From: Aurantimonas coralicida | Lineage (GTDB): Bacteria; Pseudomonadota; Alphaproteobacteria; Rhizobiales; Rhizobiaceae | Length of the DNA stretch: 38,656 nucleotides | Direction: 5' to 3' | NCBI GenBank assembly: GCA_011050685.1 | Contig: DRFF01000103.1 | Location: 1 to 38,656, forward strand | Part shown: piece after piece, positions 4,451-30,396 of the stretch | Layout of the letters: each line of letters starts with the position of its first letter | Position numbering within the stretch: position 1 is the stretch's first letter | The notes under the pieces: generated by a model | What the model saw: only the letters and a program-made list of their open reading frames with translations | The model's database searches: none | What the model was told of the DNA's origin: nothing | Translations under genes and position numbers: made by a program

Positions 4451-5505
4451 CCGGATTCTGGACCGGCCGCCGCGTCCTCGTCACCGGTCATACCGGCTTC
4501 AAGGGCGGCTGGCTCTGTCTGTGGCTGGAGCGCCTGGGGGCGCAGGTGACCGGCGTTGCCCGCGCGCCCGAGACCGAGCCGGCGCTTTATCACCTGCTTG
4601 GCCCCTGGAACGGCCGGGACCATCATCTCGCCGACATCCGCGATCTCTCGGCGCTGGCGCCGCTGGTAAATACGGCGCGCCCGCAAGTGGTGTTTCATCT
4701 GGCTGCCCAGCCGTTGGTGCGGCGGTCCTATGCCGAACCGGTCGAGACCTTCGAGACCAATGTCATGGGCACGGTGAATCTTCTTGCGGCCATTCGTGGG
4801 GCGCCGGATGTGCAGGCTGTGGTGGTGGTGACCACCGACAAGGTCTATGCCCATCGCGATGATGGTCGTCCGTTTGACGAGGACGACCGGCTCGGCGGCA
4901 ATGATCCCTACAGCTGTTCGAAGGCCTGTGCCGAACTCGTCGTCCAGGGTTTCCGCGACAGTTTCTTCGGTTCGGGCGGCCCGGCACTGGCCACCGCCCG
5001 CGCCGGCAATGTGGTCGGCGGCGGCGACTGGTCGGAGGATCGGCTGGTGGCCGATTGCGTGCGTTCGCTCGAAGCGGGGAGGCCCGTCCATCTACGCGCG
5101 CCGCGCTCGATCCGGCCCTGGCAGCATGTGATTGAGCCGCTGGCGGGCTATCTGAAACTGGCGCAGGCGTTGACGGAGGAGCCGGCCCGCGCGCCGCAGA
5201 CTGTGAATTTCGGTCCGGACCCGGATCAGTCCGCCACAGTAGCCGAGATGGCGGAGCGGCTCGCCGCCGCTTGGGGCGCTGCCGAAGCCTGGCTTGCCGA
5301 CGAGGGATCGCATCCGCCCGAGGCGAAGGCGTTGCGTCTGCGCTCGGATCGCGCCGCCGAGGCACTGGGCTGGCGACCGCGCCTATCGCTGGACGAAACC
5401 CTTACCTGGACCGCCGACTGGTATCGCGCTCACCGCGCCGGTGCCGACATGCGCGAATTCACGACGGCGCAGATTGCCGCCTATGAAGAGCGGGCGTCGC
5501 GATGA
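4432..5505 (+). CDS. rfbG: CDP-glucose 4,6-dehydratase
   Basis: This short-chain dehydrogenase-type enzyme converts CDP-D-glucose to CDP-4-keto-6-deoxy-D-glucose using bound NAD. The 357-residue protein has the characteristic GHTGFKGGWL nucleotide-binding loop at 19-28, VTTDKVY at 133-139, and the catalytic Y160-S-C-S-K164. I chose the ATG at 4432 because GFWTGRRVLVTGHTGFKG then falls at the usual distance from the N-terminus; the frame is open further upstream inside rfbF. It overlaps rfbF by 19 bases and the next gene by 4 (ATGA). Its product is the branch point for dideoxyhexoses. No rfbH (3-dehydrase) is present in the window, so the sugar should keep oxygen at C3. Confidence 0.96.
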   Translation: MEDLDVTGFWTGRRVLVTGHTGFKGGWLCLWLERLGAQVTGVARAPETEPALYHLLGPWNGRDHHLADIRDLSALAPLVNTARPQVVFHLAAQPLVRRSYAEPVETFETNVMGTVNLLAAIRGAPDVQAVVVVTTDKVYAHRDDGRPFDEDDRLGGNDPYSCSKACAELVVQGFRDSFFGSGGPALATARAGNVVGGGDWSEDRLVADCVRSLEAGRPVHLRAPRSIRPWQHVIEPLAGYLKLAQALTEEPARAPQTVNFGPDPDQSATVAEMAERLAAAWGAAEAWLADEGSHPPEAKALRLRSDRAAEALGWRPRLSLDETLTWTADWYRAHRAGADMREFTTAQIAAYEERASR

Positions 5506-22097: not shown

Positions 22098-23132
22098 TCA
22101 GCGACGATCCACAAGGGAAGTTTCACGCCACTGCGGGTCTGCTTCAGGCGTCAACGCGACCGGTGAGTGCGCAGCCGGATGCTCCTTCCCGTCCATCCAG
22201 CCGACGCGGCTCTGACGCAGGGTTTCGCCGACACGTTCGATGAAAATCGCTTTCAGCCCGTGATGTCGTGCGATCTCCAGCCCTGCGCCTGCGCCCCGCA
22301 CCATGAGAGCCGTTGCCCAGGCGTCCGCGTCCATGCAGCTTTCCCCCAGCACGGTGACCGATGCCGGCGATCCCGTGGCCGGGCCGCCCCGGGCCGGATC
22401 CATGGTGTGGGACAAGCGCCGTCCGCCAACATCAAGCCAGTGTCGGTAGTCACCGGATGTCGCGACTGCGCAATCCGCCAGTTCCAGGATCGAGAGCGGC
22501 GCGCGCTCCTCAAAGTCGGGCCGCTCCAGCGCCACCGTCCAGGGGCGGCCATCGGAGCGCTGACCGCATGCGCGCATCTCGCCATCGAGCCCCACCAGGG
22601 CATCCGTGATCCCGAAGCGTCCCAGCACCGCCATCATGCGATCGACGGCGTAACCTTTGGCGATGCCCGCCAGGTCCAGCGTCATGGGCGCGTGTTTGCG
22701 AACCCTCAGCGCATCGCCGTCAAGCTCGAGAACCTCATGCGCCAAGGCGTGGGCCCTGCCCAGGGCTACCCGCATCGCCTGTGGGTCCGCATGTTGCGGC
22801 CCGAACCCCCAGGCGGTGACGACATCGCCCATGCCGATATCGAAGGCGCCATCGGACAGCCGCCCGATCTCGAGGCCACGGGCCAAAACCTCCATCAGTT
22901 CGGGAGGGACCGAAACCCATTCACCCACCGGCGCGCGATTGACACACATCAGGTCGCTATCGGGCTTCCAGGTGGACATCTGGCGATCCACCAGGCCCAC
23001 GCTTTCGGCCAACGCGCAACGGATCGGAACGGGGTCCGTAGCGGGCGATGCATCGAATAGCGCCGACCAGCGGGTGCCCATGGTTGGCCCATTCAGCGCG
23101 TGGCGAACCAGATCAATAAACGTCCTCGGCAT
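22098..23132 (-). CDS. apbE: FAD:protein FMN transferase (ApbE)
   Basis: ApbE hydrolyses FAD and attaches FMN to a Thr or Ser of target proteins. The family motifs are present: NGPTMGTRWSALFD near the start, DGAFDIGMGDVVTAWGFGP, LDLAGIAKGYAVDRMM, CAVATSGDYRHWLDVGGRRL, SHTMDPARGGP and MDADAWATALMV. It lacks an obvious signal peptide or lipobox, although many ApbE proteins are exported. The start overlaps the reductase gene by 20 bases, so the two are coupled; an internal ATG at codon 18 would remove only pre-domain residues. Its neighbour DUF2271 protein carries a TGAS motif that could be its substrate. The C-terminus runs up to an IS110 remnant. Confidence 0.93.
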   Translation of the reverse strand: MPRTFIDLVRHALNGPTMGTRWSALFDASPATDPVPIRCALAESVGLVDRQMSTWKPDSDLMCVNRAPVGEWVSVPPELMEVLARGLEIGRLSDGAFDIGMGDVVTAWGFGPQHADPQAMRVALGRAHALAHEVLELDGDALRVRKHAPMTLDLAGIAKGYAVDRMMAVLGRFGITDALVGLDGEMRACGQRSDGRPWTVALERPDFEERAPLSILELADCAVATSGDYRHWLDVGGRRLSHTMDPARGGPATGSPASVTVLGESCMDADAWATALMVRGAGAGLEIARHHGLKAIFIERVGETLRQSRVGWMDGKEHPAAHSPVALTPEADPQWRETSLVDRR

Positions 23133-25320
23133 AGCGATTCTCCGCTTTCAACATCGCAGGTGTCAAACCCTGCGGGGTCAGGATATCCGTCAGCGCCTCC
23201 GCCACCCCCGCAGCCATGTCGCGTCCGCCACAGACCAGCACCTGCGCGCCGTCGGCGATCAGTCGCGCGACCTTCGGGGCGTCCCTTCGCAGCGCATCCT
23301 GGACATAGGCCCGCTGCTCCGTCCGTGAGAACGCGGTCGTGATAGAGGCAAGCCGGCCTTCCGTCCGCCAACCGGCGATCTCCGTGCCATAGAGAAAATC
23401 GCTGTCGGGGTGCCGGGCGCCGAACCACAGGTGCATCGGCCGGGCGCGCCGATTGGCCCGCGCGAATCCGGCAAGTGGTCCGATGCCTGTCCCAGCGCCG
23501 ATGAGGATTATCGGCTTGTGGTTTCGCGCGGGCCGAAACGCGGGGTTGCGGCGTATGAAGCCCGGCATGCTGTCGCCCGGTTGCAGGTCGAGAAGCTGCC
23601 CGGAGCAAAGACCGCCGGGGTGCTTCTTGACCACGATTTCGACGAAGCCATCGCCGCGTCCCGAAGCGAGCGAGTAGAACCGGGGCACGGCGGATCCGTC
23701 GGGGACGATGCCCAGAAGATCGCCGGGCCGAAAGCCTCCGAAGCCGCGTCCGAGCACGCGCTTCCAGAGCGAGGCCGTGGGCGGGGCGAAGCGCAGGATT
23801 GCGGTCGGCGCTTGCACCTCGGCCCCGTAGTCGCGGCGCGAGATCAGGGTCAGCGCCTCTGTCGCCGGCAGAACCGGCTGGTGGCCGAGCTCGAGTTCGA
23901 TCTCCATGGCGGTGCCGAGCGCCCGGCCCCAGCGGGCGAAATCCTGCGGCGACTGGCGGTCGACCGTGTCGAACGGCAGCAGCATCTTCCAGCCCCGCGC
24001 CTCGGCAGTCTCGGCAACGGCGCGGGCGAAGGCGCAGTAGGCCGGGAAGCTGCGGTCGCCGAAACCCAGCACCGCGAAAGCTGCGGCGGGCGGCGCATCG
24101 AGCTGCGCGACCCGGTCGAGGAACCCTCTGGCCGATGCCGGCGCATCGCCGTCGCCATAGGTTGCGGCGAGAACGATGATCTGCTGCGCGCGGGTGTAGC
24201 CGGCCGGATCGAAGGCCGACATCGGTGCAGCATGAACGCTCTGGCCCGCATCCGTCAGCGCCTTGTGCAGCGTCGCGGCAAAGCTCCATGTGCTGCCACC
24301 CTCGCTGCCGACCAGAATGATCGTTTCGGCCCGGGAAGCTGGCTGGTTGGCGTGGATCTGCGGCCTGCTCCGCCGCCCCGCCCACCACAGCACCATCCCG
24401 GTTCCGCCCATCACCGGCACGCCGAGAGCCATCAGCCCGAGCACCAGCCCCAGCGTTGCCGCTCCTTGGCCGGTGTGCAGCATGTAGATCGTTTCCGAGA
24501 GGCGCTCCCACCCGGTCAGGTCAGTCCAGCCAAGCAGTGCGCCCGTGCCCTGATCGAGATACCCGATGCCCCGGTCGGTCTTCAGCGTGAAGATATCGGT
24601 TGCGTCGCCGGGATAGGGAAAGTTCAGTTCGCGAAGTTCCGCGGTCGGGGTTCCGCCGAGCAGGTCGATCGCACCGAGCGCCACGCCAGTTTCGCCGCTC
24701 ATCTCGGACGGGACGGCAAGCGGCACTCCGCCGTCGGGTAAAAGATCGAAGGTGGAGGCCGTCATCCAGAGCGCGGTGGCGGAAGAGAGCGCGAGGCCCA
24801 ACACCGCGACGCGGGCGATCTCCACATGCAGGCGGCCTGGCATCGGACCGCGCAGCGGGGAGAACCAGCGGCGCCACCCACCTGCCCGCCGCGCGACCAG
24901 AAGCGCCCCGGAAACTGAAAGGACGAGCATCGCCAAAGCGGCCGCCGCCATGGTGATGCGTCCGCCGTCCCCGAGGAACAGGGACCGGTGCAGGTTGGTC
25001 AGCCAGCGCTCGGTCTGATTGGGGTCAGCCGAAGCGATCCCCTCTCCCGTGGCCGGATCGATGACCGCGGCGCCCGGCGTGCCGGCGTCGAACCAGTAGG
25101 CGGTGATCCGGCCGGACGGTGCGCGGCGGATCTGCTCGACGCCAGGATAGACAGCCTGGATGCGTAAAGCGAGGTCGGCCACGGTCAGACCGGCTTCCGC
25201 CTGCGGCGCAGCGAGGCGCTCCGCCGCCGGAAAGACGGACAGCGCCGCCCCGCTGAGCGCCAGAACGGTGACGAGAGCCAGAGCCACGAGACCCGGCCAG
25301 CGATGGAGCGCGCGGAGCAT
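23113..25320 (-). CDS. PepSY membrane / flavodoxin / CysJ-like reductase fusion
   Basis: The N-terminal 320 residues are a PepSY-associated membrane unit with helices near 9-30, 122-144, 168-188 and 286-314. Histidines next to them (H6, H111, H165, H282) could bind haem as in FoxB-type ferric reductases. A flavodoxin-like domain follows from about 333 (ILVGSEGGSTWSFAATLHKA), then an FAD domain (RFYSLASG near the middle) and an NAD(P)H domain (ILIGAGTGIGPLAGFARAN, VLVCGGRDMAAG). The end RYAEDVY matches the terminal aromatic of CysJ and cytochrome P450 reductase. It should pass electrons from NADPH through FAD and FMN to the membrane haems and on to a periplasmic acceptor, perhaps a flavinylated partner or ferric iron. 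It is the third gene of a four-gene operon. Confidence 0.92.
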   Translation of the reverse strand: MLRALHRWPGLVALALVTVLALSGAALSVFPAAERLAAPQAEAGLTVADLALRIQAVYPGVEQIRRAPSGRITAYWFDAGTPGAAVIDPATGEGIASADPNQTERWLTNLHRSLFLGDGGRITMAAAALAMLVLSVSGALLVARRAGGWRRWFSPLRGPMPGRLHVEIARVAVLGLALSSATALWMTASTFDLLPDGGVPLAVPSEMSGETGVALGAIDLLGGTPTAELRELNFPYPGDATDIFTLKTDRGIGYLDQGTGALLGWTDLTGWERLSETIYMLHTGQGAATLGLVLGLMALGVPVMGGTGMVLWWAGRRSRPQIHANQPASRAETIILVGSEGGSTWSFAATLHKALTDAGQSVHAAPMSAFDPAGYTRAQQIIVLAATYGDGDAPASARGFLDRVAQLDAPPAAAFAVLGFGDRSFPAYCAFARAVAETAEARGWKMLLPFDTVDRQSPQDFARWGRALGTAMEIELELGHQPVLPATEALTLISRRDYGAEVQAPTAILRFAPPTASLWKRVLGRGFGGFRPGDLLGIVPDGSAVPRFYSLASGRGDGFVEIVVKKHPGGLCSGQLLDLQPGDSMPGFIRRNPAFRPARNHKPIILIGAGTGIGPLAGFARANRRARPMHLWFGARHPDSDFLYGTEIAGWRTEGRLASITTAFSRTEQRAYVQDALRRDAPKVARLIADGAQVLVCGGRDMAAGVAEALTDILTPQGLTPAMLKAENRYAEDVY

Positions 25321-25332
25321 GACCTCGCCTCC

Positions 25333-25803
25333 TCACATGCCGTAGCTGAAGTTGGCGATGTAGCGACGCCCGCGCACCGGCGTACTGGCGCCGGCCGTCG
25401 TCAGCGGCACAGCCACCTCGTTCGGACTGTCGCGCATGTCCTCGACGGCCGCGTCGATATGCAGCGTGTATCCCGCATCGAACAGCGCATCGGCCAGGTC
25501 GAGCGTAATCGACAGCTCGCGTCCGGCGCCCACACTGGCGCCGGTGATGCCGTTGATCTGGGCGGCATCGCCTCCAGTGGCGCGATACCAGTCCGAGAGG
25601 TGTTCGTAGTACTTCGACTTGCCGCCAGCCATCCAGAGACTGCCGACATATGCGCCCTGCGCATCGGTGACATAGTAAGCAAGATAGGCGCCATCACCGC
25701 CATAGGTGTTGAGCGTCGTGGTCAGCACAACTGGGCGCGCCACGGCGAGGCTGGGAAGCGTCAGCGCGGTCGTCAGCGCGAGCGTTGCTAGAACGAATTT
25801 CAT
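25333..25803 (-). CDS. Exported DUF2271-type protein, candidate flavinylation substrate
   Basis: The 156-residue protein starts with a signal peptide (MKFVLATLALTTALTLPSLA, likely cleaved after AVA). The body fits DUF2271: VLTTTLNTYGGDGAYLAYYV, GSLWMAGGKSKYYEHLSDWY and the C-terminal RRYIANFSYGM. Residues 84-90 read NGITGAS, close to the D-G-x-T-G-A-T/S sequence that ApbE modifies with FMN at the threonine (here T87). It lies 12 bp upstream of the PepSY reductase and in the same operon as apbE. A periplasmic FMN carrier reduced by the membrane fusion protein is the simplest reading. The modification is inferred from motif and context. Confidence 0.87.
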   Translation of the reverse strand: MKFVLATLALTTALTLPSLAVARPVVLTTTLNTYGGDGAYLAYYVTDAQGAYVGSLWMAGGKSKYYEHLSDWYRATGGDAAQINGITGASVGAGRELSITLDLADALFDAGYTLHIDAAVEDMRDSPNEVAVPLTTAGASTPVRGRRYIANFSYGM

Positions 25804-25853
25804 CGGGTTCTGCCTTGTCGTTGAGGGGTGAGGACGGGGGCGACGGGCCGGGG

Positions 25854-26186
25854 TCAGTTCACTTGGACGTGTGGCGGGGCGCCGTTGCCGAAGAGAGGGT
25901 TCTGCGGCGGCGCGACCGACTTGGCCGGCGCGGGGTTGGGCCCGCCGTCGTCGTCGTCATCATCATCACGGTCATCGTCGTCATCGCGGTGGCTGGACCG
26001 CCGGCGGTCGTCATCGTCGTCGTCGCTGACGAGGAGGAACTGGAGCGACTCCGCTCCATCGTGGACGAATGCGGTGAAGCTGCTTTCCTCGCCGTCGGGC
26101 GGGGTTCGCAGCGCGCTCCACGCGGACACGCCAATGGCGAGCGTCAGCGCCGTGGTGGTGGCAAGCAGGGCGAGAGGTTTACGCAT
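25854..26186 (-). CDS. Small exported Asp-rich protein with APPxNxLF tail
   Basis: This 110-residue protein has a signal-type N-terminus (MRKPLALLATTTALTLAIGV), a short body (SSFTAFVHDGAESLQFLLVS) and two Asp/Arg runs (DDDDDDRRR near 55-63, DDDDDRDDDDDDD near 68-80). It ends with APPQNPLFGNG and PHVQV. I do not recognise a named family. The tail resembles the tail of the PepSY protein at 27868-28254 (APPNNGLFTPG ... VVV), and both follow an acidic linker. It is the first gene of the operon with DUF2271, reductase and ApbE, and is read from the promoter with the TCAGG repeats. The acidic runs could bind metal ions; this is a guess. AAGGAG lies upstream of the ATG. Confidence 0.8.
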   Translation of the reverse strand: MRKPLALLATTTALTLAIGVSAWSALRTPPDGEESSFTAFVHDGAESLQFLLVSDDDDDDRRRSSHRDDDDDRDDDDDDDGGPNPAPAKSVAPPQNPLFGNGAPPHVQVN

Positions 26187-26202
26187 GGCGAGGTCTCCTT
26201 GG

Positions 26203-26281
26203 ATCCGATAGGATCAATCTGGAGGCGGCACCTGAGGGCTTCCTGACAGCGACGCGGTTTCCGCTTCAGCTTGGCGTCAGG
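26203..26281 (-). promoter_or_regulatory. Response-regulator promoter block A (TCAGG-N6-TCAGG)
   Basis: On the - strand TCAGG-N6-TCAGG covers 26246-26231, an 11-bp repeat as used by OmpR/PhoB-type regulators. A second pair in the opposite orientation, TCAG-N7-TCAG, lies at 26266-26281. About 21 bases downstream of the second TCAGG is CCTATCG, a plausible -10. The block is nearly identical to the one at 27110-27187. It should drive the operon beginning with the Asp-rich protein, 45 bp away. Confidence 0.75.
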
Positions 26282-26382
26282 CACGAAAATGGTCGCATCG
26301 GCACGGGGTTCGGCGTTCTTGCCGGGACGGCGACTATCGTCGCGGTTCGGATGGTCATTGTCCGCAGTCCGCCGGAATCACG

Positions 26383-26409
26383 GAAGGCCGGCTGCAACTG
26401 CCGGCCTTC
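26383..26409. terminator. Strong hairpin after hemerythrin-like gene
   Basis: GAAGGCCGGC (26383-26392) and GCCGGCCTTC (26400-26409) form a perfect 10-bp stem with a 7-base loop, 31 bp beyond the end of the reverse-strand hemerythrin-like gene. No T-run follows, but position and strength fit a terminator that also insulates promoter block A. Confidence 0.65.
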
Positions 26410-26439
26410 ACGGGAACCCGCTACACGAGCGCCGCTGGT

Positions 26440-27045
26440 TTATTGGGGGGCGTCGAGCGGGTGCGGGTTGCCCAGCCCCATCATCGGGATCGGGTCACGG
26501 CCGTAGAGCGGCCCCGGGTCGCTCTGGCTCTCAGACGCATCGACCTCGGCCGCGCGGGCGGTAGAGCCGATGAGAATGGCGGCCGGATAGAGAAACTCCG
26601 CGTCGCTCATCTCATGCCAGATGATTCTCTCGGCAAGACGCGATACCTCCGGCCAGCCTCCCGCATCTCCCGCATCTCCCGCGGCGTACAGCTCTGCCAG
26701 CGCGCCGATGGCCTCTACCTGACCGTCGATCAGCAGGGGCAGTTCCGCCTGCAGGCTCGCCAATGCCGGCAGAGACCCAGCCACGGCCTTTCCTTCCGTG
26801 ACCGCTCCGAGGAGCCCGAGGGACGGTAAGACGGCCCTCTCCTCCGCCTCGATGTGGGTGCCCAGAAGATTGACCGCGTTGCGGGCCGCGCCGCCGACCT
26901 GACCCGGTGTGCCGGCAACTTCCTCGAGCTGCGTGAGGAAGTCCGCATGGGCCGCGCTCAGTAGGTACGGGGTTTCAAGGGGAGCTGCCGAAGCCGTCGC
27001 AGCAAATACGGATGCGACAGCAGAAACGGTGAATGACGCGTGCAT
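26440..27045 (-). CDS. Exported hemerythrin-like protein
   Basis: The 201-residue protein begins with a signal peptide (MHASFTVSAVASVFAATASA). The mature part is helical with His/Glu positions like the hemerythrin cation-binding domain: H33 in LLSAAHADFLTQLEEVA, H64-x3-E68 in GTHIEAEERAVLPSLG, and H144 with E150 in IIWHEMSDAEFLYPAA. Such four-helix proteins bind a di-iron centre and sense or bind O2, NO or iron. It ends in a loose Pro/Gly tail. The ATG at 27045 is preceded by AAAGGAG; the frame is open 26 codons further up but the ribosome site and signal peptide decide this start. It has its own copy of the TCAGG promoter, so it belongs to the same regulon. Confidence 0.75.
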   Translation of the reverse strand: MHASFTVSAVASVFAATASAAPLETPYLLSAAHADFLTQLEEVAGTPGQVGGAARNAVNLLGTHIEAEERAVLPSLGLLGAVTEGKAVAGSLPALASLQAELPLLIDGQVEAIGALAELYAAGDAGDAGGWPEVSRLAERIIWHEMSDAEFLYPAAILIGSTARAAEVDASESQSDPGPLYGRDPIPMMGLGNPHPLDAPQ

Positions 27046-27109
27046 GGTCTTCTCCTTTGATTGAAGCGTGTCTGATCCTCGATTCGCTTTCAGTGTGGAT
27101 CTTGCTTGA

Positions 27110-27187
27110 ATCGATACGAGCAATCTGGTGCTGCCACCTGAGAGCTTCCTGACAGCAACGAAGTTTTTGCTTCAGCTTGGTGTCAGG
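27110..27187 (-). promoter_or_regulatory. Response-regulator promoter block B (TCAGG-N6-TCAGG)
   Basis: TCAGG-N6-TCAGG lies on the - strand at 27152-27137, with an opposed TCAG-N7-TCAG pair at 27172-27186 and CGTATCG as a -10 candidate at the same distance as in block A. About 78 bp align with block A with few differences. It lies roughly 90 bp before the hemerythrin-like start codon. Confidence 0.75.
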
Positions 27188-27212
27188 AAAAAACCCCGCC
27201 ACGCAGGCAGGG
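27188..27212 (-). terminator. Rho-independent terminator of the PepSY-cytochrome b operon
   Basis: On the - strand CCCTGCC-tgcgt-GGCGGGG forms a 7-bp stem with one G-T wobble, directly followed by six T residues. It lies 41 bp after the end of the cytochrome b gene. The T-run touches the upstream edge of promoter block B, so the previous transcript is stopped exactly where the next promoter begins. Confidence 0.88.
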
Positions 27213-27253
27213 CTCAGTCCGGGTCGAGGGGCACGCGACACCTAAAATCAGGA

Positions 27254-27871
27254 TCAGGCGATATCACTGGGGCCGGGCGCGCGCTTGTTGCCCGTGATCA
27301 TGGCGCGGACGAGATTCTCGTGATGGCGGAACGAGGCGAGCACCACGCCTCCCAGGTGCAGCGCGATGAGGAGAAGCATCAAGTTGGCGAGCACCTCGTG
27401 CACTTCCTTCAGCGGTCCGTCCGTTTCCGCTCCACCGTCCCTGACTTTGCCGCCCTCCTCGTCGGCATGGGCAGCGGTCACGATCTGCGGCAGATCGGCT
27501 AGCATCGCGACACGGCTCGGCTCTTCCATCAGCCAGCCGGAGAAGGCAGTACCGGACAGCGTGACGAGCAACGCCACGATCATCGCCGCGGCCGCCGGGT
27601 TGTGGCCGAGATAGCGGCGTTCTCGTCCCCTCGCCATGTCACCCAGATAGGCGAGCGTGGTGGCCGGACCGCGCAGGAACTGCGCGAAGCGCACGTAGCG
27701 GCTGCCGACAAGGCCCCAGACCAACCGAAACGCGACGAGGCCTGCCACAACGTAGCCTGCGATTTCGTGAACCCGTTGAAGCTCGTCCGCTGTCAGCCAG
27801 GAGATCGCAAAAACCACCACCAGTACCCAGTGGAACAGGCGCACCACCGGATCCCAGACGCGGGTCATCAT
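27254..27871 (-). CDS. Cytochrome b561-type membrane cytochrome
   Basis: This 205-residue protein has four membrane helices and the His pattern of bacterial b561/hydrogenase-type cytochromes b: H14 in VRLFHWVLVVVFAISW, H35 in LQRVHEIAGYVVAG, and H158 and H172 in KEVHEVLANLMLLLIALHLG. A polar loop of about 40 residues (HADEEGGKVRDGGAETDG) is inserted before the third His. It should bind two haems b and shuttle electrons between quinol and a periplasmic partner. It starts in an ATGA overlap with the PepSY gene, so the two are coupled. Its transcript ends at the terminator at 27188-27212. Confidence 0.92.
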   Translation of the reverse strand: MMTRVWDPVVRLFHWVLVVVFAISWLTADELQRVHEIAGYVVAGLVAFRLVWGLVGSRYVRFAQFLRGPATTLAYLGDMARGRERRYLGHNPAAAAMIVALLVTLSGTAFSGWLMEEPSRVAMLADLPQIVTAAHADEEGGKVRDGGAETDGPLKEVHEVLANLMLLLIALHLGGVVLASFRHHENLVRAMITGNKRAPGPSDIA

Positions 27872-28254
27872 TCGACGACAACGCCGGGCTTGCTACCCGG
27901 AGTGAACAGACCATTATTCGGCGGCGCCATTGATGCGGCGGGAGCGGCATTCCTATCCGGTCGGCTGTCATCGTTGTCCTCGTCGTCATACTCCGTTTCG
28001 ACGATGGCCAGCGTGCCGGGATCGACCGTGACCTCGATCTCACGGCCTTGGGCGTCGCGGCCATCGATCTCATAGCAGCCGTCATCGGTCTTGATTCTGC
28101 GAACGGTCCAGCCCTGCGCCTCGGCCATGTTCTGGATCGCCTCGCGTGGTTGCCAATTGGCCATCGGAACATTGCAATCGCCGTCATCGGCATGGGCCGC
28201 ACCGGTCACGACAACGCCTGACAGAAGTGCGACGGTCATCAAGGATTTTTTCAT
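27868..28254 (-). CDS. Exported PepSY-domain protein with acidic linker and tail
   Basis: The 128-residue protein has a signal peptide (MKKSLMTVALLSGVVVTGAA, cut near AHA) and one PepSY domain (REAIQNMAEAQGWTVRRIKT, CYEIDGRDAQGREIEVTVDP). An Asp/Glu linker (YDDEDNDD) follows, then a tail with APPNNGLFTPG and VVV. The tail resembles that of the Asp-rich protein at 25854-26186. PepSY domains are small periplasmic modules, often near redox enzymes and two-component systems. The gene is divergent from the response regulator and coupled to cytochrome b561 by an ATGA overlap. The TCAGG-N6-TCAGG site lies 49 bp upstream of its start. Confidence 0.88.
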   Translation of the reverse strand: MKKSLMTVALLSGVVVTGAAHADDGDCNVPMANWQPREAIQNMAEAQGWTVRRIKTDDGCYEIDGRDAQGREIEVTVDPGTLAIVETEYDDEDNDDSRPDRNAAPAASMAPPNNGLFTPGSKPGVVVE

Positions 28255-28302
28255 CTTTCCGCCTCTCGTGACTGGTGGTGATGCGCCCTTGTCGCGCGCT
28301 AT

Positions 28303-28318
28303 CCTGACGGCGACCTGA
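28303..28318. promoter_or_regulatory. Response-regulator site C in the divergent promoter region
   Basis: The + strand reads CCTGA-N6-CCTGA, i.e. TCAGG-N6-TCAGG toward the PepSY gene. It has the same 11-bp repeat as blocks A and B, in the 145-bp gap between the PepSY-cytochrome operon and the response-regulator gene. TTATAC at 28331-28336 is a possible -10 for the regulator gene on the + strand. This suggests autoregulation plus control of the PepSY operon. Confidence 0.65.
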
Positions 28319-28399
28319 AGGACGCCGAATTTATACGTAAGGTGCGTGTAAGTCCCTCAGGGGATACCGGAACGACAGGACGAATGGGACCGGAACGAC

Positions 28400-29059
28400 A
28401 TGCGTGTGTTGCTGATCGAGGATGACACGGTGCTGGGCGCCGCGGTGCGCGACCAGATCGTCGCCGACGGCCATTCCGTGGACTGGGCCACCCGGCTTGA
28501 CGCGGCGAGCGGATATCTGGGGGTGGCGGTCTACGACTTGATCTTGCTGGACTTGATGCTGCCCGATGGGCGCGGCCAGCCGTATTTGCGCGCCTTAAGG
28601 GTGCGAGGCGATGTGACCCCCGTGATCATCCTGACCGCGCTCGACCAGATCAGCGACCGGATCGAGGGGCTAAATGCCGGCGCCGACGACTACATGGTCA
28701 AACCTTTCGACCTGTCCGAGCTCTCGGCGCGACTGAACGCTGTTGCCCGCCGCTATTCCGGCAACCCCAACCCGCTGATCACGCTGGGGGATCTGGAAAT
28801 CGACCTCGCGGCAAGAACTATCCGTCGGGGCGGCAAGGTCGTACCTCTGACCGCCCGCGAATGGATGTTGTTCGAGGCCTTGGTGCAGCGGCCCGGGCAG
28901 ATCCTGTCCAAGGCGCAGCTCGAAGAACGGCTTTACTCATTCGAGACCGAGATCGAGAGCAACACGATCGAAGTCCATGTCAGCCGGTTGCGCAAGAAGC
29001 TGGGGCACGACTGGATCGAGACGGTGCGCGGCTTCGGCTATCGGCTGGGCGCCGCATGA
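28400..29059 (+). CDS. OmpR/QseB-family response regulator
   Basis: The 219-residue regulator has an N-terminal receiver domain with acidic pocket E7-D8-D9, phospho-acceptor D51 in LILLDLMLPDGRG, T79 and K101 in YMVKPFDLSELSARL. A C-terminal winged helix follows from about 125, containing LTAREWMLFEALVQRPGQIL and VHVSRLRKKLGHDWIETVRG. It most resembles QseB/PmrA-type regulators, which bind direct repeats spaced one helical turn apart. Three such repeats (TCAGG-N6-TCAGG) lie upstream of this gene and of the two neighbouring operons. The sensor kinase follows in an ATGA overlap. It should activate the redox genes on the opposite strand. Confidence 0.95.
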   Translation: MRVLLIEDDTVLGAAVRDQIVADGHSVDWATRLDAASGYLGVAVYDLILLDLMLPDGRGQPYLRALRVRGDVTPVIILTALDQISDRIEGLNAGADDYMVKPFDLSELSARLNAVARRYSGNPNPLITLGDLEIDLAARTIRRGGKVVPLTAREWMLFEALVQRPGQILSKAQLEERLYSFETEIESNTIEVHVSRLRKKLGHDWIETVRGFGYRLGAA

Positions 29060-30396
29060 GATGGCCCGGCTCACTACAGGCACAGCTGGCGCTTGGGCTG
29101 GGACTGGGCTTGGCCCTCCTCTGGCTGGCAACCGCATGGGCGACGGCAGCCATCCTGCGCGGCGAGATGAACGAGGTGTTCGATTCCGCGCTCGAGGAAA
29201 CCGCACAACGCATCCTGCCGCTGGCAGTGATGGACATCATCGACCGCGAAGAGCAGGGCGTCAGCCAGAGCATCGCCACCCTGCGAAGCCACGATGAATT
29301 TTTCACCTACATCGTTCGAGACGACCAAGATCGCGTGCTGTTGCGCTCGCACGGAACCGAGGACGTGGTCTTTCCGGCCTTCGATGGCATGGGCTTCCGC
29401 CAGACGGCGACGCATCGGCTCTATTACGACGCGGCGCTGCAAGGGACGATCACCATCGCGGTCGCCGAACCATTGAGCCACCGTGCCGACGTGGCGCGCG
29501 AGGCTTTGGCTGGTCTCGCACTGCCCCTGGTCGTCGTCATTCCGATCAGCCTTCTCGGGGTGCTGGTGATCGTCCGGCGCAGCTTGCGGCCCGTTCGCCG
29601 GTTCAGCCGCGCGCTGGCCAGCCGCGGCGCCCGCGATCTATCCGAGGTTGGCGACAGCAATCTTCCAAATGAGATCCTGCCGGTGGCTGAGGCCGTCAAC
29701 CAGCTTCTGGACCGGCTGCGGCGTACGCTGGAGGCCGAGCGTAACTTCACCGCCAATGCCGCGCATGAATTGCGCACTCCCGTGGCGGCGGCGCTGGCAC
29801 AGACTCAAAGGCTGATGGCGGAAACCCCCGATCCTGCCGTGACCCAAAGGGCGGGCGAGATCGAAACCGCTCTGAAGCGATTGACGCGGCTGTCCGAGAA
29901 GCTGATGCAACTGGCCCGAGCCGAGGGCGGGCGAATGCGGCGCGACACCGCGACGGACCTGCGCCCCGTGCTGCGCATGGTCGTCTCGGATCTTGAGGGG
30001 ATCGCCGGGAAAGAGCGCATTGACCTCGAATTGTCGGACGCACCGGTCCTATCCGATATCGACCCCGACGCCTTTGCGATCCTCGCCCGGAACCTGATCG
30101 AGAACGCGCTGCGCCACGGCACCAGCCAGGCCCCCGTTCAGGTGATCCTGACGCCGCGCCGCACCCTGCGCGTGATCAACGAGGGCCCCGCCGTCCCGCC
30201 CGAAACGCTGGCGCGGCTTACGGCGCGTTTCGAGCGTGGGCAGGCCATATCGGAGGGCAGCGGGCTGGGCCTGTCGATCGCCAGGGCCATCGCGGACGGG
30301 GCGCAGGCGACGCTCACGCTGCAATCGCCCTCCCCGGGTCGGGCGGACGGTTTCGAGGCATCGTTCCAGGCACCGATAGGTCAGCAACCGGACTGA
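29056..30396 (+). CDS. Sensor histidine kinase (QseC-like)
   Basis: The 446-residue kinase has membrane helices near 8-33 and 152-174 that frame a periplasmic sensor of about 120 residues. A HAMP-like region follows, then the H-box NFTANAAHELRTPVAAAL with phospho-acceptor H237, the N-box LARNLIENALRHG, and the G-box SEGSGLGLSIARAIADGA. It pairs with the response regulator upstream, sharing 4 bases (ATGA). The signal is unknown; the regulon of PepSY, flavin and haem proteins suggests a metal, redox or envelope cue. The start at 29056 is chosen for the overlap and the proper first helix. Its stop is only 10 bp from the end of the converging membrane-protein gene. Confidence 0.94.
   Translation: MRWPGSLQAQLALGLGLGLALLWLATAWATAAILRGEMNEVFDSALEETAQRILPLAVMDIIDREEQGVSQSIATLRSHDEFFTYIVRDDQDRVLLRSHGTEDVVFPAFDGMGFRQTATHRLYYDAALQGTITIAVAEPLSHRADVAREALAGLALPLVVVIPISLLGVLVIVRRSLRPVRRFSRALASRGARDLSEVGDSNLPNEILPVAEAVNQLLDRLRRTLEAERNFTANAAHELRTPVAAALAQTQRLMAETPDPAVTQRAGEIETALKRLTRLSEKLMQLARAEGGRMRRDTATDLRPVLRMVVSDLEGIAGKERIDLELSDAPVLSDIDPDAFAILARNLIENALRHGTSQAPVQVILTPRRTLRVINEGPAVPPETLARLTARFERGQAISEGSGLGLSIARAIADGAQATLTLQSPSPGRADGFEASFQAPIGQQPD

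Follow-up and report, generated by a model that had tools for sequence, protein, structure and literature searches.

What controls the predicted flavin/heme electron-transfer cluster that lies beside an OmpR/PhoB-type response regulator in Aurantimonas coralicida? The question arises in a stretch of 38,656 nucleotides (nt) of contig DRFF01000103.1 (GCA_011050685.1), here called the window, in which a first-pass annotation had pointed to a direct repeat, TCAGG-N6-TCAGG, upstream of three units of the cluster and had proposed that these repeats tie the units into a single local regulon of the adjacent regulator. We find that each repeat is one arm of an inverted element of 49 base pairs (bp), CTGA-N7-CTGA-N19-TCAG-N7-TCAG. 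We consider it likely that the three elements in the window are operators of the regulator encoded at 28400-29059, each of which would bind two dimers in opposite orientation, with the gene-proximal dimer replacing a -35 box and activating transcription.

Three short repeats are arms of a longer inverted element

Across the whole window, TCAGG-N6-TCAGG is present without mismatch at 26231-26246, 27137-27152 and 28303-28318, always on the minus strand and just where the first-pass annotation had placed it. Three copies compare with a mean of 0.07 and a maximum of 1 in 100 dinucleotide shuffles, so the repeat withstands the annotation's own proposed refutation, occurrence at random frequency. 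With two mismatches there are 49 matches against 35.2 expected (1 of the 100 shuffles gave as high a count), and genome-wide there are 12 exact copies, three of them in the window, against 4 for the pattern read backwards, our control for genome-wide motif scans. With a relaxed count near background and 12 copies against 4, it is the clustering of the repeat that is notable rather than its rarity. The genome scan that the annotation had suggested thus returns an excess of exact copies, although the 16-mer by itself does little to predict further members across the genome, and we rejected it as the whole operator on these counts. We also rejected the idea of three independent sites, because sites 1 and 2 lie within a duplicated segment:

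26206..26281, upstream duplicate copy 1, which holds element 1 (76 nt, 83% identical to copy 2)
27112..27187, upstream duplicate copy 2, which holds element 2 (76 nt, 83% identical to copy 1)

Judged from these sequences, one recent duplication accounts for two of the three sites.

A second repeat lies 35 bp from each site on the opposite strand, and the 49-bp element consists of these two direct repeats of 11-bp period in opposite orientation; the predicted operator is therefore inverted and has twice the length first proposed. Allowing up to three mismatches, the window holds 3 elements against 0.12 expected. At up to two mismatches the whole genome yields the window's three and a single 2-mismatch match on another contig, and the backwards control gives 1. 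The three elements are listed here with the base found 12 positions beyond the outer TCAG on each side, which is considered below:

26232..26280, element 1, before the Asp-rich/DUF2271/reductase/ApbE operon; 0 mismatches; A on the gene side, G on the other side
27138..27186, element 2, before the hemerythrin-like gene; 0 mismatches; A on the gene side, G on the other side
28304..28352, element 3, between the divergent PepSY and regulator genes; 2 mismatches; A on both sides

The mismatches of element 3 fall in its right arm, which is degenerate (TAAG/TAAG). Element-to-start-codon distances are 45 bp for the Asp-rich gene, 49 bp for the PepSY gene and 48 bp for the regulator gene, and element 2 lies 92 bp from the ATG of the hemerythrin-like gene at 27045. 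With distances of 45-92 bp, a site does precede each unit of the redox block, as had been claimed.

The element is conserved beside orthologous regulators

We compared the window with 46 other loci that carry an orthologous regulator (group A, 68-96% identical), excluding locus L049 as a duplicate of L168. In 45 of these 47 loci the interval that separates the regulator gene from the divergent PepSY gene contains an element with at most three mismatches, with a central gap of 19 in 40 of them and of 20 in 5; none of 940 shuffled upstream regions reached three mismatches. In the remaining two loci (L050 and L051), whose operon follows the kinase gene, a perfect element is found at that place instead, with an A on that side. 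Lack of conservation in relatives, the other refutation that had been put forward, is thus not what is seen.

The half-sites hardly vary across 28 non-redundant loci, in contrast to the spacers, and an A at position 61 and its mirror-image T at -11 are invariant or nearly so. The conserved half-site core is TCAG, with TAAG in some group A half-sites; the first-pass half-site TCAGG therefore holds in its first four bases and not in its fifth, since the final G varies in relatives. At least one further element is present in 36 of the 47 loci, 44 in all, mostly before a DUF2271 or Asp-rich gene. That recurrence, together with a genome complement made up of the window's three elements and a match at the control rate, supports a local regulon. 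One more element, at +7800 from the regulator in locus L185, was set aside before these 44 were counted; it matches perfectly, precedes a second PepSY-type gene and has an A on both sides.

A directional A marks predicted -10 boxes at a fixed distance

The search for elements made no use of the base 12 positions beyond the outer TCAG. The divergent elements have A there in 44 of 45 cases on either side, which makes 88 of 90 flanks. The 44 further elements are one-way, the gene side being taken as the operon side, and were chosen with both arms totalling at most two mismatches; here the A is present in 43 of 44 gene-facing flanks and in only 6 of 44 opposite flanks. A named cluster gene starts within 500 bp of 39 one-way elements, and all 39 have the A, as do 4 of the 5 that have no such start; at 4 one-way elements a named gene also starts within 500 bp on the other side. 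A -10 box beginning 10 nt past TCAG would have its second, key base at this 12th position, and the following boxes are predicted for the window:

26216..26221, minus strand, predicted -10 box CAGATT of the Asp-rich operon; TCAG-N7-TCAG-N10-CAGATT with 0 mismatches, promoter role inferred
27122..27127, minus strand, predicted -10 box CAGATT of the hemerythrin-like gene; TCAG-N7-TCAG-N10-CAGATT with 0 mismatches, promoter role inferred
28288..28293, minus strand, predicted -10 box GACAAG of the PepSY-cytochrome operon; from the position rule in relatives, putative role
28363..28368, plus strand, predicted -10 box GATACC of the regulator-kinase operon; from the position rule in relatives, putative role

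With the outer half-site 10 bp from the predicted -10 box, the proximal arm would take the place of a -35 box. A box at -35 and a fixed distance to the -10, as seen in the 88 of 90 divergent and 43 of 44 gene-facing flanks, correspond to class II promoter geometry, and the predicted layout is that of an activator that replaces the -35 box.

The arm that faces away from the gene is retained. In the one-way elements the distal arm is perfect in 43 of 44 and the proximal arm in 37 of 44; because selection required both arms within two mismatches, the level of conservation is biased upwards, although the difference between proximal and distal arms is not. The spacer of the distal arm is also more conserved than that of the proximal arm, giving a longer consensus, and the distal side has lost the A yet kept the arm. 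From this pattern, the distal arm probably binds more strongly and helps the proximal dimer.

The element tracks the orthologous regulator

In a survey of 394 genomes of the family, with the element scored as present at up to one mismatch, it occurs in 47 of the 49 genomes that have the orthologous regulator (E value below 1e-99; the next match is at 1.5e-84) and in 19 of the 345 that do not (Fisher p 8e-43, descent ignored). The two misses, L178 and L207, have the element at two mismatches. Two of the 19 element-bearing genomes without the regulator were examined: L209 is a group B regulator locus with an exact 19-bp-gap element, and L208 is taken up below. Together with the 45 of 47 loci, this co-occurrence lends in silico support to the proposal of one local regulon under the adjacent regulator. 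The arms also have the form expected of operators of the OmpR/PhoB family, TCAG-N7-TCAG being direct repeats about one turn apart.

By sequence matches, the nearest solved relatives of the regulator are PmrA/BasR (PDB 8jo2, 4s04; the closest at full length) and CarR. Group B paralogues (55-65% identical) have an exact arm in 9 of 16 loci, with the A at 9 of 9 left arms and 3 of 5 right arms, and their gaps between arms vary (24, 28, 30, 38, 40, 40). Loci L132, L133, L193, L198 and L199 of this group show the same arms at a divergent PepSY/regulator pair with gaps of 24 to 40 bp; most of the gaps in group B depart from 19 by roughly an integral number of helical turns. At the recognition-helix positions filled by Ser-Arg in groups A and B, the group C regulators (46-49% identical, paralogues found in the same genomes) carry His-Asn, and the box upstream of them is TTAAG-N6-TTAAG. 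In the same genus, the group C loci L136 and L137 combine a perfect TTAAG-N6-TTAAG upstream with a His-Asn helix.

We surveyed this dipeptide in 120 rows, of which eight (GQ, IA, LA, AQ or blank) are unaligned in the helix and uninformative. Of 65 rows with Ser-Arg, 50 are preceded within 250 bp by an exact TCAG arm, 1 by a TTAAG box only and 14 by neither. The 9 with His-Asn include 6 with a TTAAG box (one also with a TCAG arm) and 3 with neither; L026 in this set is the L137 locus. Among the matches listed, GTAAG-N6-GTAAG precedes 6 of 13 regulators with His-Arg (L060, L061, L063, L064, L069 and L072), a possible third half-site step. The Ser-Arg of the window regulator presumably occupies the positions of Asn196 and His195 of PmrA. 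In the PmrA recognition helix, Asn196 and His195 lie near the bases (PMC4660055). The window regulator and its group therefore differ from the PmrA/BqsR pattern, with TCAG instead of TTAAG across group A and Ser-Arg, not His-Asn, in the window. The helix change and the half-site shift appear as a correlation along the tree, which is not proof.

Proposed mechanism and alternatives

In the mechanism that we favour, a dimer of the phosphorylated regulator, its subunits arranged head to tail, would read each arm, so that two dimers would occupy each element in opposite orientation. The gene-proximal arm would substitute for the -35 box and recruit RNA polymerase in the class II manner of PhoB or PmrA. 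At element 3 both arms face genes, and transcription of the two operons, among them the one that encodes the regulator, would be driven from it; elements 1 and 2 have a gene on one side only, and their other arm, which has no -10 box, is kept, probably as a stronger helper site. The targets would be a periplasmic set for flavin/heme electron transfer. We are evenly divided over a more specific form of this proposal, a rigid two-dimer switch in which the palindromic 49-bp element, with its new half-site, carries a high-affinity reversed distal anchor, a -10 base kept or lost on each side sets one-way or two-way use, and Ser-Arg in place of His-Asn is the signature of a half-site that has moved from TTAAG to TCAG.

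Several observations weigh against activation by this regulator at these elements. The -10 boxes are poor apart from the A, their last T is not conserved, and one element (L052) has no A on either side; 11 of the 47 loci have no second element; and part of the distal arm's conservation is built in by the two-mismatch selection, the difference from the proximal arm excepted. The orthologous loci are related by descent, so their counts are not independent, the co-occurrence p-value ignores the kinship of the genomes, and the comparison of helix and half-site is confounded by descent. In L208 an element occurs with no cluster genes nearby and no orthologous regulator in the genome. Since group B shares the half-site, another regulator could use it in some genomes. 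Separately, the L208 region near 4964 holds five overlapping CTGA/TCAG half-sites.

The proximal arm lies in the -35 contact region of the polymerase, which a repressor could equally occupy, and some PhoP boxes do act as silencers (PMC3335776); the regulator might thus bind the element and repress, its dimers blocking RNA polymerase until phosphorylation releases or tightens them. We think this unlikely, because the distance to the -10 is fixed at nearly all divergent flanks, as an activator that contacts polymerase would need and a repressor would not, and because the sides without a gene keep the arm while losing the A. It is doubtful, too, that the proximal arm alone matters, the distal arm being left over from a two-way promoter that was duplicated. 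The 76-nt duplication did make elements 1 and 2 copies of each other, and on the outward side each points at the 3' end of an adjacent gene and has a G at the 12th base; a relic should decay, however, and the distal arm is instead the better preserved one, with the longer consensus, on the very side where the unused -10 base has been lost.

That a different regulator reads the element, whether a group B paralogue or an unrelated factor, draws on the recognition-helix residues and half-site that group B shares. We regard it as very unlikely for the window, where the next-best regulator of the genome is only 48% identical and of the group C type, with its own TTAAG-N6-TTAAG box upstream in that group, and where the element follows the orthologous regulator across the 394 genomes. 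There is next to no likelihood that the repeats form an RNA leader stem or arose by chance: the arms are inverted copies and 183 of 315 spacer positions could pair if G-U is allowed, yet 28 of 29 deviating core columns break the pair without compensation, for which we rejected the stem reading, and only 0.12 elements are expected per window by chance. Activation by the adjacent regulator from paired, opposed dimers remains the reading that we prefer.

Genes of the cluster

The predicted binder and the genes around it are as follows:

28400..29059, plus strand, response regulator of OmpR/PhoB type, 219 residues, proposed binder (Pfam Response_reg, Trans_reg_C)
29056..30396, plus strand, sensor histidine kinase (Pfam 2CSK_N, HAMP, HisKA, HATPase_c)
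27868..28254, minus strand, PepSY_2 periplasmic protein with an acidic tail (Pfam PF13670)
27254..27871, minus strand, cytochrome b561-type membrane protein (Pfam PF01292)
26440..27045, minus strand, hemerythrin-like secreted protein, a weak assignment (PF01814, E 0.032, 15.1 bits, below the cut-off of 25.3)
25854..26186, minus strand, Asp-rich secreted protein (no Pfam family at E 0.001)
25333..25803, minus strand, DUF2271 protein (Pfam PF10029)
23113..25320, minus strand, PepSY_TM-flavodoxin-NAD(P) reductase (Pfam, including PF03929)
22098..23132, minus strand, ApbE flavin transferase (Pfam PF02424)

The start of the kinase gene overlaps the stop of the regulator gene. The family given to the regulator in the first-pass annotation is borne out by receiver (PF00072) and winged-helix (PF00486) matches above their cut-offs, and by eye Asp51 is the candidate phospho-acceptor; the label hemerythrin-like, by its sub-threshold score, is weak. 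Inspection of the kinase sensor region revealed many conserved residues and no recognisable metal motif. By eye, the DUF2271 protein carries TGAS, which fits the flavinylation motif [S/T]GA[S/T] described for DUF2271 (PMC8238504). With ApbE (PF02424), a motif-bearing DUF2271 protein (PF10029) and a PepSY-type membrane protein (PF03929), the cluster has the composition of a flavinylation-associated PepSY-like cluster.

The Asp-rich (25854-26186) and PepSY (27868-28254) proteins, otherwise unlike, share a tail of the type PP.N.LF..G..P.V.V, which in relatives follows an acidic stretch on either the Asp-rich or the PepSY protein. In locus L124 the cytochrome b561 match is split (residues 1-42 and 152-205), and four elements are still present. 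The orthologous regulator occurs in 2 of 7 sampled genomes of the same genus, so that the cluster (22098-30396) is patchy, and the nearest named regulator copies, at 87-88%, are in Iodidimonas and Roseovarius; this distribution suggests that the cluster moved between orders.

Relation to known systems

The PhoB pho box also consists of direct repeats of 11-bp period that replace the -35 box at nearly the same distance from the -10; its boxes run in the same direction only, and its half-site differs from TCAG. Among response regulators with comparable sites, BqsR (CarR) of Pseudomonas aeruginosa has the operator TTAAG-N6-TTAAG, with 432 operators at up to two mutations in the genome (PMC4682146). 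As reported in the same source, it shares with the element described here the repeat period and the 6-bp spacer, and it is an activator whose downstream pentamer overlaps the -35 at one studied promoter, with extra sites adding output. In contrast to the same-direction TTAAG arrays described there, the half-site here is TCAG, in a fixed inverted pair, at three places. Head-to-tail reading of an arm would resemble PmrA/BasR of enterobacteria, in which the dimer reads two half-sites head to tail (PMC4660055).

The promoter layout recalls those of Salmonella PhoP (architectures I, II and V), in which a box about one turn upstream of the -10 replaces the -35; the PhoP box is 12 nt (in one case 11) ahead of the -10, and ybjX gains more than 8-fold in output from a reversed second box 30 nt upstream (PMC3335776). 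Unlike the varied spacing and orientation of the PhoP promoters in that account, a single geometry is found here at nearly every target, in many genera and at divergent genes. The gene content itself, an ApbE with a DUF2271 substrate and a PepSY-type membrane reductase, is that of flavinylation-associated PepSY-like clusters, for which Fur repression in Shewanella and Caulobacter is mentioned in the literature (PMC8238504, PMC11334425); the cluster described here, by contrast, has a two-component system with its own putative operator.

Our searches of the open-licence literature turned up no paper that describes this operator and none on a two-component system serving a DUF2271/PepSY/ApbE cluster. 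Repeats of such period, boxes at the -35 position and reversed second boxes are each known singly, from BqsR and PhoP. What is new in the predicted operator is the TCAG half-site, the fixed inverted pair kept across genera, and a -10 base that would decide between one-way and two-way use.

For a two-component system that sits on a flavin/heme electron-transfer cluster, the analysis provides a concrete predicted operator and a small, self-contained candidate regulon. With this promoter layout it becomes possible to test, one base at a time, what a reversed second dimer contributes and what makes transcription run one way or both. PmrA-like regulators whose half-site and recognition helix change side by side form a natural series in which their specificity code could be read.

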